This document shows, in pieces, positions 23,983 through 27,216 of a DNA stretch of 64,000 nucleotides. A model generated the notes under the pieces. It did not search any database. It saw only the letters and a program-made list of their open reading frames with translations, and was not told the origin of the DNA. The stretch's first letter is position 1. Each line of letters starts with the position of its first letter. Location of the stretch: positions 6,262,001 to 6,326,000 of the forward strand of contig NZ_CP097384.1 in NCBI RefSeq assembly GCF_024584705.1. Reading direction: 5' to 3'. Source of the stretch: Blastopirellula sp. J2-11. Lineage in GTDB: Bacteria; Planctomycetota; Planctomycetia; Pirellulales; Pirellulaceae. Made by a program: the position numbers and the translations under genes.

Positions 23983-24417
23983 TTATTTGGCCTCTTCAAC
24001 CGTGACCTTGATCATCTTGTCACCCTGCTTGATCGCGTCGACCACATCCTGACCTTCGGTCACTTTACCGAAGACGGCGTGCTTGCCATCGAGCCAGTCG
24101 GTCTTCGTATGGGTGATGAAGAACTGCGAGCCGTTCGTGTTTGGGCCCGAGTTGGCCATCGACAACACGCCGGGACCGTCGTGCTTCAAGTCGGGATGAA
24201 ATTCATCTTCAAACTTGTAGCCGGGACCGCCGGTGCCGGTGCCGTTGGGGCAACCTGTTTGGACCATGAAGTCGTTGATCACGCGATGGAATTTCAGTCC
24301 ATCGTAGAAGCCGTCGGTGGCGAGCTTCTCGAAGTTGGCGACCGTCTTCGGCGCCTTGTCGTCGTGCAACTGAACTTTGATCGTACCTTTGTCGGTCTCG
24401 ATGGAAGCGACTTTCAT
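23983..24417 (-). CDS. ppiB: Cyclophilin-type peptidyl-prolyl isomerase
   Basis: A 144-residue cyclophilin. The active-site regions [35 protein letters not shown] and [13 protein letters not shown] contain the expected Arg, Phe, Gln and His residues. There is no signal peptide, so it is cytoplasmic and helps protein folding by proline isomerisation. GAGGAG 6 bases before ATG 24417 fixes the start, even though the frame is open nine codons further upstream. It is a single gene. Confidence 0.95.
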
Positions 24418-24510
24418 CGCGTCTCCTCTTTGCGCTAAATACACGGTGGGGCAATATCAGAATCCCCTATTTTAGCCCTTCAACGATTGCTGCGTAACCG
24501 GTCGCAATAG

Positions 24511-24577: not shown

Positions 24578-25450
24578 CTACGGCTTAACCAATTGAATGA
24601 AAAAACCTTCCCCAGCGAAGCGTTGAAACCAATGGGGCAGATTGCGGGCAAACGCATCAAAATCGGCCGCTTGTTCCGCCGCCGCTTCGATCGCTGCGCC
24701 AACGCTCATGCCGGCGATAAGCGATTGTAAAAGCAGGAATTCACTCTCCTCAAGCGGGATCCGCCGCACGATAAACTCGCGCCGTGAAAGGGCCAACCAA
24801 GTCGCTGCGGCCGGCGGAATGGTCAACGGTCGGCCTGCTCGAAAGTCGCTGAAGTAGGCGTTCACCGGAAAGCGATAGGCGTGCAAGCTCAGACAAGGCG
24901 CCGCGATCAATTTCGTCTGCGGCCAATCGTCTGGCGAGACTTGCGCCAGATCGTCCGGCGTGATGACGCCCACTTGTTCGGTACCGGGGCCATCAAACGT
25001 TTGGGCGACGCTCCATTCGAATGAAGCGAGATCGATCAGAAAGTCCGCCCAGCCCGGCGCATCGCTCTCGGCCGCTGGACGGGTCGCTTCCAGATGAGCG
25101 ACAAACTGATCGGCCAAGCGGGCGAGCGTATAGCTGGTCGACGGACGTTTGTCTAAATAGTCGAGCGCAAACCCGTCAAACAGTTCTTGCCCCAATGTTT
25201 CGCACAGCGCTGGAAACTGCTCACGCATGCACTCGACCAACCGGGCGAAGTACGCGTTGCCATACACTTGCAGTCGTTCAATGCTCGTGCGTTTCTGGCT
25301 ACGGGCGATCACTTGCTCGACGTCGTCACTCGCGATATCGATCCACTGACGCGCGGCGGCGTTGTCGATGCCGGCGGAGATTCCGCGTGGACTCGTAATC
25401 ACGCTTTGCATCCAGCGCTGTAGCGTCGTTAACGAGTGCGAGTCGCTCAT
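24578..25450 (-). CDS. bufC: DUF2063 partner protein of a bufferin operon
   Basis: A 290-residue protein of the DUF2063 family (PF09836), the BufC/HvfC type. The family core is visible at about residues 60-115 ([20 protein letters not shown], then [20 protein letters not shown]). Such proteins pair with MNIO enzymes and are thought to hold the precursor peptide; the binding mode is not proven for most. The start codon overlaps the end of the MNIO gene by 4 bp, so the two are translationally coupled. It is the third gene of the operon that begins at 26904. Confidence 0.88.
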
Positions 25451-26364
25451 TCGATCTCCGGCGTCACAAAGTGAAGCGGATGCGGCGCAGGTGCGTCTGC
25501 GTTGTTGGTGGCGATCGGCTCGGGCAACTCTCCTAACTGCGCAGCGATATGGCCACGCGCCTTCAGCACTTCGGCATGCATCACGTCAAAGGACGGTATG
25601 TTGGCGTCCCACTCTAATAGCGTCGACGCGCCGCCGGTCAACTCATACGCAAGCTGATAAAGTCGCCATACCGGGTCGATCACCGCGGCGTCGTGCGTGT
25701 CGATGCAGTAGTCGCCCATGTTGGTGTGGCCGGCCAGATGAAACTGCACGATCCGCTCGTGCGGCACGCCGCGTACATATTCGGCTGGATCAAAATCATG
25801 ATTGACGCCAGAAACATAGACGTTGTTCACGTCCAACAGCAGTCCGCAATCGGCCTCTTTGGCCATCGCGGAGAGAAACTCCCATTCAGTCATTGTCGAC
25901 GCGGCGAAGGTGATGTACGAACTGGGATCTTCCAGCACCAGCGGACGTTCGAGAAACTCCTGCACCGTTTTGATCCGCGCGACGACATGCGCCAGCGACT
26001 CTTCGCTGTACGGAATCGGCAATAGGTCGTGCGAATTGCGTCCGGCGACGCCGGTCCAACAAAGATGGTCCGAGATCCACCGCGCGTCGATCTCGCCAGC
26101 CAAGCGTTTCAACTTGGCGAGATAGTCGAAGTCGAGCGGATCGGTGCTGCCGATCGAGAGCGATACGCCGTGCATGACGAGCGGATAGCGCTCGGCGATT
26201 TGATCGAGCACATAACGCGGTCGCCCCTGCGTGTCGATGTAGTTCTCACTGATGATCTCAAACCAATCGACCGCCGGCCAATGCTGCAGAATGTGGCCGA
26301 AGTGGACCGAGCGCAAGCCGACGCCGAGTCCCAGGTTTTGATGGCCGAGCCGCGCCGCGGTCAT
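25447..26364 (-). CDS. bufB: MNIO-family (DUF692) peptide-modifying enzyme
   Basis: A 305-residue DUF692 protein, now called MNIO (multinuclear non-heme iron dependent oxidative enzyme). It has a TIM-barrel fold with conserved metal ligands: [52 protein letters not shown] and LLEWD. Family members oxidise cysteines of a partner peptide, for example into thiooxazole-type rings, to give copper-binding peptides (bufferins, HvfA-type products). It sits 81 bp after a Cys-rich precursor gene and overlaps the DUF2063 gene, which is the classical A-B-C order. I infer that it modifies the product of 26446-26904. Confidence 0.92.
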
Positions 26365-26445
26365 GGCGTTCTCTCTCGGATGCGAATACCGGCGCAGCCA
26401 AACGCGGCGCCGGAAAAAGTTCCACAGGCAAGCAAGGGGGGGGAA

Positions 26446-26904
26446 CTACGCTTTCGGTTCCGGCGCCGGTTTGACCTCTTTGCCTTCTTCCTTCATGCGG
26501 GCTTCAAACTTCTCGCGAGCGCCGTCCCAGGCTCCTTCCATCAACGGAATCGCGCAACCGCCTTTGCCTTTGCACTCGTTCGTGCCGACTTCGTTGTGGC
26601 AACCTCCTTGGCCTTTGCATTCATTGTGACCGCCGCAGGCATGGGCTTCCAACGTCGCACAAGCGCCGGCGCCGGCGCAATCGTTGTCGCCTCCTTTTCC
26701 TTTTCCCTTGCACTCATTCAAACCGCGACAGAGGTGCCACTCCGCTGTTTTCTCTTCACCGGCAGCATCGCCCCCGGTTGCGGCGACATCGGTCTTGGTT
26801 TGACCACAGCCGAGCGCGGCGCCTCCCAGCATTCCTCCCAGCGCGGCGGCGGAAAGACGATTGAAGTCGCGACGATCGAGATGGCGTTTGTCGTTGGTAG
26901 TCAT
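26446..26904 (-). CDS. Cys-rich bufferin-like precursor peptide
   Basis: A 152-residue protein. Residues 8-34 form a signal with a twin-arginine motif (DRRDFNRLSAAALGGM) and a possible lipobox, ALGC (Cys33). The mature part is Gly/Cys/Lys-rich with Cys at 59, 65, 76, 82, 90, 96, 102, 111 and 117. Most are spaced as C-x5-C, with NECKGKG, NECKGQGGC and NECKGKGGC repeats like BufA2-type bufferin precursors. A charged tail without Cys follows (EGAWDGAREKFEARMKEEGK). AGGA lies 9 bases before the ATG. It is the first gene of an A-B-C operon with a DUF692 enzyme and a DUF2063 protein. I infer a copper-binding RiPP; the modified residues are not known. Confidence 0.85.
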   Translation of the reverse strand: MTTNDKRHLDRRDFNRLSAAALGGMLGGAALGCGQTKTDVAATGGDAAGEEKTAEWHLCRGLNECKGKGKGGDNDCAGAGACATLEAHACGGHNECKGQGGCHNEVGTNECKGKGGCAIPLMEGAWDGAREKFEARMKEEGKEVKPAPEPKA

Positions 26905-27216
26905 GTCGAAGGGTCCTGATGGGATTTGGGGAAAAGACAGACGTGCCGTCTTTTAAGGGCAATCCAAGAGAGATACCCTACCGGCGGCGTTGTTAGAAGT
27001 CTAGCAACTACCGCCGCTAGAGGATTGTGGATAAACCTACAAATTTTTGGTTAAGATCGCCGAAATCCGCGGCGCCCAACCATGGTTTGACTGCCAAAAC
27101 GAATCCAACTTTCTTCTAATATTGATCGTACACGCGAGAAAGCGACGTCGCTTTCGCTGCAGTTACCGCGTTCCTTGCTGCGCCAAACCGGCCGGCGCTG
27201 ATTTCGGGCGGATTGG
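26905..27216. other. Divergent intergenic region
   Basis: It lies between the bufferin-like operon and the small membrane protein at 27217, and the operon promoter must be here. I found no clear -35/-10 pair, operator or riboswitch. Confidence 0.35.

Follow-up and report, generated by a model that had tools for sequence, protein, structure and literature searches.

A bufferin-like RiPP operon with a putative twin-arginine signal on its precursor in Blastopirellula sp. J2-11

Introduction

Among described systems, bufferins of the Buf2 type (BufA2/BufB/BufC) stand closest to the subject of this paper: three genes, here termed A, B and C, within a 64-kb stretch of the genome of the marine planctomycete Blastopirellula sp. 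J2-11 (the window, meaning that whole stretch), which would make a ribosomally synthesised and post-translationally modified peptide (RiPP) from a Cys-rich precursor by means of a multinuclear non-haem iron-dependent oxidative (MNIO) enzyme and a DUF2063 partner protein. In the survey of Antoine et al. 2025 signals for the general secretory (Sec) pathway are the rule and precursors were sorted by predicted Sec signal; its discussion leaves open how Sec-signal precursors avoid export before modification, and the words 'tat' and 'twin' are absent from its text (PMC12452194). The same source describes adjamnio-I precursors of 122-293 aa with 8 to 21 Cys, a set without predicted signal peptide and with PME-type 2 partners (PMC12452194 Table 2).

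Other MNIO systems offer further points of reference. Captophorins (fontiphorin, oxazolin/HvfABC and gonophorin) are copper-linked peptides with 5-thiooxazoles, and in HvfA the signal peptide serves as leader (PMC13097082, PMC13419390). The DAG-RiPPs DybA and NedA are made in the cytoplasm and then lipidated via the lipoprotein pathway (PMC12636315), and a word search of the DAG-RiPP text returned neither 'tat' nor 'twin-arginine'. As far as the listed matches show, the openly licensed literature holds no report of twin-arginine RiPP precursors, an earlier mention elsewhere being possible, and for a planctomycete MNIO the DAG-RiPP preprint alone turned up. The reading favoured here, which we hold to be quite likely, is that the locus is a RiPP operon of bufferin-like (Buf2) type, with export of the precursor through the twin-arginine translocation (Tat) machinery.

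The operon and its precursor

Open reading frame (ORF) calls place the three genes on the minus strand at 24578-26904 in the order A-B-C (Table 1), with a gap of 81 bp between A and B and an overlap of 4 bp between B and C (25447-25450), so that the layout given in an initial annotation of this DNA stands. In 21 family-level loci and in many named Planctomycetota loci a precursor of this Cys pattern stands immediately ahead of a related MNIO, which argues that the set did not arise by chance; the operon is real. The host genome, a single contig of 6.43 Mb, holds one PF05114 match and one match to the precursor alignment A2, which is A itself, side by side. The host is close to Blastopirellula marina, and the nearest named relative found was B. 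marina DSM 3645 (L061; the same genome as L017, so that the locus sets overlap), with a precursor 90% identical to A.

Table 1. Features of the A-B-C operon, in positions of the window
Feature	Position	Strand	Remark
Gene A, Cys-rich RiPP precursor, 152 aa; nine core Cys, a predicted C-terminal helix and a putative Tat-type signal that includes a lipobox-like site	26446..26904	minus	
Twin-arginine motif RRDF, residues 11-14 of A	26863..26874	minus	RRx[FL] kept in relatives
GxxxG (G24-G28) in hydrophobic stretch of A, candidate leader element	26821..26835	minus	In A2, G24 is invariant and G28 reaches at least 90%
Lipobox-like ALGC of A, would-be lipidated Cys C33	26806..26817	minus	Lipobox-like site in 27/34 Tat-type census precursors
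Core of A, nine conserved Cys (residues 59-117), NxCKGxGGC repeats	26554..26730	minus	Alignment A2
C-terminal segment of A, xPLxxxAWxxARxxFExxM	26488..26553	minus	Invariant residues in A2: W126, R130
GC-rich hairpin in the A-B gap, with 7-bp arms and lacking a T-run	26389..26413	minus	Weak: z -1.1 in the window, -1.9 in B. marina
Gene B, MNIO enzyme, PF05114 / BufB, 305 aa	25447..26364	minus	
A254 of B, beside proposed catalytic Asp D253	25603..25605	minus	Ala here
Gene C, DUF2063 partner, predicted RRE-like fold, 290 aa	24578..25450	minus	

In A the core Cys stand at residues 59, 65, 76, 82, 90, 96, 102, 111 and 117, and five of their eight successive spacings are exactly x5, in keeping with the C-x5-C core that the initial annotation had described. 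Alignment A2 comprises the window and 66 loci drawn from the set of 80 named loci described below, filtered for an RR motif, an ATG start, a length under 200 aa and a likeness below about 90%; across its 67 rows C65 is nearly invariant, and full invariance holds for the other eight core Cys, for A21 and G24 and for certain Gly, Asn, Pro, Trp and Arg residues. In the phylum there are also several shorter Buf2-type precursors, which stop shortly after GGCAVP in place of the C-terminal segment. An AlphaFold model of A has a moderately confident helix at 123-139 (predicted local distance difference test, pLDDT, in blocks of about 68-83), another at 11-23 and little else.

The comparison with known BufA families, to which the initial annotation had pointed, went against the precursor. 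A scores 24.5 bits against the BufA2 model (NF050166), with a cut-off of 60, and has no match to DUF2282, the Buf1-type precursor family, its sole Pfam match at E<=10 being a sub-threshold Tat-signal model. The BufA2 model does find precursors in 31 of 294 Planctomycetota genomes, nine of them over the cut-off, and 66 of the 67 members of A2 at E<=1 (best 1.8e-8). The earlier description as a bufferin-type operon in a planctomycete thus stands for the enzyme (a BufB equivalog), the partner (DUF2063, with a fold nearest to TglI and NGO1945) and the gene order, and fails for the precursor; because the cut-off is missed, DUF2282 is absent and a twin arginine replaces the Sec signal, A is a divergent Buf2-like precursor, bufferin-like rather than a standard bufferin. 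Elsewhere, the precursor ORFs of L044 and L041 contain 24 and 28 Cys, respectively, together with numerous CKGKGGC-like repeats; that of L041 probably takes in non-coding sequence upstream.

A putative twin-arginine signal

Three samples bear on the signal. In a sample of MNIOs taken at family level, 36 of 149 genomes were positive and 30 loci were retrieved; precursors were chosen by the core motif alone, and all 21 recognised in this way have RRx[FL] before the core. A named-locus set took the best 80 of 254 loci by likeness to the whole precursor (alignment A1); as this ranking includes the signal it favours Tat types, a bias that the family sample and the enzyme census avoid. The DNA patterns of the 80-locus scan lay within the core, and RRx[FL] occurs in 79 of the 80. 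At the remaining locus (L093:6000-6320), SRRDFNRLTAAAFGG is encoded upstream, but a stop closes the frame ahead of the core and the stretch offers no ATG, which may reflect a pseudogene or a sequencing error.

The enzyme census found PF05114 in 110 of 392 Planctomycetota genomes, and 83 MNIO loci with a BufB-like score of about 271 bits or more were taken. An adjacent precursor could be classified at 53 of these, giving 34 Tat, 18 Sec and one ambiguous (L214, omitted for that reason; L213 was moved from a doubtful Tat label to Sec, its RR lying before the likely start). The other 30 loci had no pattern-classified precursor and stand outside the counts; by eye, L215, L242 and L238 (the place of L056) are Tat-like, L249 (the place of L036) is Sec-like and L240 (the place of L032) is ambiguous. 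Controls were 714 other ORFs of 94 loci, 77 of them signal-like, and RRx[FL] occurs in six of the 77.

Tat signals are expected to have a milder hydrophobic stretch, and the stretch is milder in the Tat than in the Sec types (mean Kyte-Doolittle 1.64 against 2.08, Mann-Whitney p 5e-6 with relatedness ignored). The host genome encodes TatC (206.9 bits), and the curated Tat-signal model TIGR01409 matches 18 of the 67 members of A2 at E<=1 (best 8e-4). Judged by motif, A thus has what marks a Tat substrate, RRxF/L before a mild hydrophobic stretch in a host with Tat machinery, and shows a twin arginine where published bufferins have a Sec signal; by eye, seven loci from Pseudomonadota plasmid records (L142 to L146, L148 and L150) have no RRx[FL] before the hydrophobic stretch. 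A is accordingly predicted to carry a Tat-type signal in place of a Sec signal, which is new relative to described bufferins; this signal and the lipobox-like site are additions to the initial annotation.

Leader element and lipobox-like site

The signal of A, probably of the lipoprotein type, may double as a leader. C33 is not invariant in A2, and in some relatives the signal finishes at a site of the AxA type. A leader function has precedent in that full-length HvfA lost about 20 Da with HvfBC and signal-less HvfA 2.5 Da (PMC13419390, which cites Junger et al. 2026 for the signal peptide as leader in bufferin too). GxxxG is found in 45 of 52 census precursors (29 of 34 Tat, 16 of 18 Sec) against 11 of 77 control signals, and was not seen by eye in four Pseudomonadota Buf2-type signals. 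It is therefore a candidate leader element kept through a change of export route, and we infer that GxxxG would be read by the enzyme pair and RRxF by the export machine.

Enzyme and partner

The match of B to PF05114 (DUF692) anticipated for the second gene has an E of 1.5e-108 (362.5 bits, cut-off 25). B also passes the NCBIfam BufB equivalog NF050167 (356.6 bits, cut-off 310) and stays below the cut-off of the HvfB model (269.9 bits against 360). H65, H100, E145, D178, H209, H224 and E251 of B are the same residue in 3bww, TglH and MbnB; D99 and D253 are matched in 3bww and MbnB, and H213 in 3bww only. Between 104 and 108 of the 108 rows of the MNIO tree conserve H65, D99, H100, E145, D178, H209, H213, E251 and D253, and some of these conserved polar residues are presumably metal ligands.

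For FonB, Asp249 is the proposed catalytic Asp, and an adjoining specificity site has been described (PMC13097082). That site holds Asp in four Pseudomonadota Buf2-type enzymes (L142 to L145) and Phe in 3bww, and Ala in 75 of 81 Tat rows and eight of 25 Sec rows; its use as a marker of export route was rejected on account of the eight Sec rows.

C matches PF09836 (DUF2063), as had been suggested for the third gene (E 1e-17, 64.6 bits, cut-off 27.2). Its model has a pLDDT of 94 and finds its best fold matches in TglI (8hi7) and NGO1945 (3dee) at E about 1e-5, with template modelling (TM) scores by target of 0.64 and 0.68; weaker matches are to RiPP leader-binding proteins. On this model C is a DUF2063 protein with a predicted fold like that of a RiPP recognition element (RRE), a PME-type 1 partner. 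All 38 relatives in alignment A3, picked by likeness to C, match PF09836 (E<=0.001), and 23 also carry the NGO1945 C-terminal domain, from which it follows that the Tat-type precursors of this sample pair with PME-type 1 partners. Sec-type precursors likewise pair with PME-type 1 partners (PMC12452194).

Evolution of the export route

The MNIO tree was built by a quick method, with 31 of 100 inner branches left open and the Sec labels of its Pseudomonadota rows assigned by eye. Pseudomonadota and several planctomycete Sec types lie at its base. The 73 rows of one clade labelled Tat group with Pseudoalteromonas row L141, itself on a long branch (Shimodaira-Hasegawa-like approximate likelihood ratio test, SH-aLRT, 97), and a second group (SH-aLRT 96) mixes seven Tat and four Sec rows. 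The fewest route changes are four without ambiguous rows (five for Tat in the group table), one of them due to the faulty row L067, which sits on a branch of length 10 because the last 330 residues of a 657-aa fused ORF were cut, so that its place in the tree is meaningless. From this topology and these counts, export by Tat seems to be a derived state in Planctomycetota, the route having switched more than once.

Split operons, fusions and other MNIO-linked loci

No MNIO was found at 28 of the 80 named precursor loci, four of which lie on contigs that end within about 1.3 kb. The 24 others (L065, L066, L070, L073 and 20 more) are precursors without a nearby MNIO, and a search of their genomes found PF05114 in 23 and a full-length BufB-like MNIO elsewhere in 21, the one of G453 holding a stop codon. 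A pattern search for an upstream precursor at those 21 MNIO loci found none, as if precursor and MNIO were split parts of one system. A DUF2063 ORF lies within 1.5 kb of the MNIO in 14 of the 21, and among 14 longer stretches, 13 from split-operon genomes, DUF2063 stands beside the MNIO in eight; G462 has a second MNIO, this one with a precursor (L178). Where precursor and MNIO lie apart, the enzymes may act in trans.

At L067:5705-7678 a Tat-type precursor is followed by a single 657-aa ORF with matches to B as well as C, and MNIO and DUF2063 are thus naturally fused there. On a plasmid of Pseudoalteromonas sp. NC201 (L141:103-3394), a 775-aa Ferritin-like (PF12902) protein, within which the bufferin-like stretch CKGSNDCKAQGGCG...GGCAVPI is embedded, is encoded immediately ahead of an MNIO that shares 57.8% identity with B; this large protein is a possible MNIO substrate. 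At L190:4062-5255 on the minus strand (also L021), a protein like an S-adenosylmethionine (SAM) methyltransferase (PF13847, 1.9e-26) ending in GDSCCEEGGCGG is encoded directly before, and slightly overlapping, a BufB-like MNIO ORF, the Tat precursor of this genome (L070) being on another contig. More distant MNIOs are preceded at L024, L025, L027, L030 and L179 by membrane-protein-like ORFs with C-terminal CGG-rich tails, which resemble TIGR04222 proteins in print.

Genomic context

A repeat like the A-B hairpin occurs in three of four Blastopirellula-group genomes, and the hairpin may set the ratio of precursor to enzyme. Upstream of A (window 26905-27164), a TAGACT box is present in 10 of 11 aligned upstream regions, with TAGAAT in L063, and is most like a -10 element; no known metal-regulator box was identified. 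A cyclophilin gene (23983-24444) lies on the strand of C, 133 bp past it, and is the next ORF after C in B. marina too. No known RNA family exceeded threshold in the window. As regards mobile elements, A, B and C had no match among phage families at E<=0.01, the MNIO had no tblastn match in phage records at 1e-5, and a Buf2-type precursor had none in plasmids at 1e-3, where a low-complexity filter perhaps masks the query.

Proposed route and rival explanations

The favoured reading can be set out as a sequence of steps. B and C would oxidise core Cys of A while it is still in the cytoplasm, with 5-thiooxazoles as the most likely product. Recognition of the signal peptide would fall to C and its RRE-like domain, which probably contacts the GxxxG-bearing hydrophobic stretch. 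Once modified, the peptide would leave by Tat, be cut and lipidated at C33 and, anchored to the membrane in the periplasm, bind excess copper, a capacity that is plausible for it. An ordinary bufferin-type enzyme set is here joined to an unusual precursor, and it probably works like a bufferin. Tat moves folded proteins after synthesis. On a bolder account, a RiPP lineage moved from Sec to Tat with its leader element kept, and only the finished, folded and perhaps copper-loaded peptide leaves, as a lipid-anchored holo-peptide copper exporter; we regard this as speculative and improbable.

A number of points weigh against the favoured reading. A falls short of the BufA2 cut-off, its best stretch being residues 73-116, and the model has no match to A in its own genome at 1e-3. 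A likewise has no match at E<=1 to TIGR01409 and reaches 10.6 bits against the Tat-signal model PF10399, with a cut-off of 24. As the rows of A2 were pre-selected for RR, the invariance of R11 and R12 and the TIGR01409 matches in 18 of its 67 members are not independent evidence, and the Fisher and Mann-Whitney values are inflated by kinship among loci. As a lipobox ALGC is less than ideal, and some relatives are without one. The whole model of A is poor (pLDDT 54), and C scores 61.9 bits against the HvfC equivalog NF050145, below its cut-off of 142. Neither a DoxX nor a copper gene is among the scanned neighbours of A-B-C, and the neighbours of relatives vary, the commonest Pfam match (YHS) occurring in four of the 89 ORFs scanned out of 141. 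Finally, what the analysis shows is gene families, gene order, a predicted partner fold, RRx[F/L] conservation and the GxxxG common to Tat- and Sec-type relatives; the modification with its chemistry, the recognition of the leader, the dependence on Tat, the lipidation and the part played by copper are inferred.

The twin arginine might be only part of the leader bound by C, with export by Sec as in other bufferins, given that signal peptides act as leaders in this family (PMC13419390), that RRx[FL] is almost fixed, that Sec-type relatives with the same GxxxG occur in the same phylum and that A itself escapes TIGR01409. The conserved unit, however, is RRxF/L, the Tat consensus, and not RR alone; it precedes a hydrophobic stretch milder than that of the Sec-type relatives, and those relatives, with related enzymes, do without RR, so that the enzymes do not need it in general. 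Export by Sec is on these grounds unlikely. The view that this is a standard Buf2 operon, new in nothing beyond its host phylum, draws on the gene order, the BufB equivalog and the DUF2063 partner, and about 16% of Buf2 are predicted lipoproteins (PMC12452194), so that a lipoprotein signal would not be foreign to it; it is nonetheless hard to square with the precursor's shortfall against BufA2, the Tat-type signal, the Ala in place of Asp beside the catalytic Asp and the extra conserved C-terminal segment, and we think it distinctly unlikely.

What the product does is a separate matter. Precursors without a nearby MNIO at 24 of the 80 named loci, each with enough contig downstream, would suit an unmodified metallothionein-like lipoprotein, with B and C acting on another substrate, but the full-length BufB-like MNIO elsewhere in 21 of those 24 genomes, none with a pattern-found precursor upstream, and the adjoining single precursor and single MNIO of the window genome make this very improbable. 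A metal other than copper, or a role in redox or sulfur stress, is a doubtful but more credible alternative for the modified peptide: besides the lack of a copper gene beside A-B-C, none recurs beside relatives among the 25 commonest of 136 families listed, and the literature describes MerC fusions and operons induced by gold (PMC12452194), to be set against the copper binding described for bufferin Buf1, oxazolin and fontiphorin (PMC12452194, PMC13097082).

Implications

If the favoured reading, Tat export of a bufferin-like peptide, is true, a natural Tat-using family would answer the question of early export by another route, and the signal, if used, would change how bufferin-like peptides leave the cell. 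Matched pairs are available in the Sec-type relatives of the phylum, whose enzymes are related, and the common GxxxG may allow the signal read by the enzymes to be separated from that read by the export machinery, both being open to point mutation. Surveys based on Sec signals may miss Tat-type precursors or file them as signal-less.

Comparison with known systems

Adjamnio-I precursors resemble A in size and Cys number, and differ in their partners, those here being type 1 (38 tested, picked by likeness to C); going by their published description, identity of A with them is improbable. DAG-RiPPs resemble the route proposed for A in being cytoplasmic RiPPs with later lipidation, and are unlike A in that DybA is modified at a CPACGMG motif and NedA at EGKCG repeats (PMC12636315). 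Captophorins share an MNIO with a DUF2063 partner, and are unlike the window operon in their EGKCG-type repeats, the Sec signal of HvfA and the Phe at the specificity site of FonB. The operon has the precursor-MNIO-DUF2063 order of published bufferins, and with Buf2 in particular it also has in common the BufB-type MNIO, the DUF2063 partner and Cys-Lys-Gly repeats. It departs from Buf2 in having no DoxX gene seen beside it, Ala next to the catalytic Asp, a precursor below the BufA2 cut-off, nine core Cys rather than 6 or 12, a C-terminal helix and, in place of the Sec signal, one of putative Tat type.

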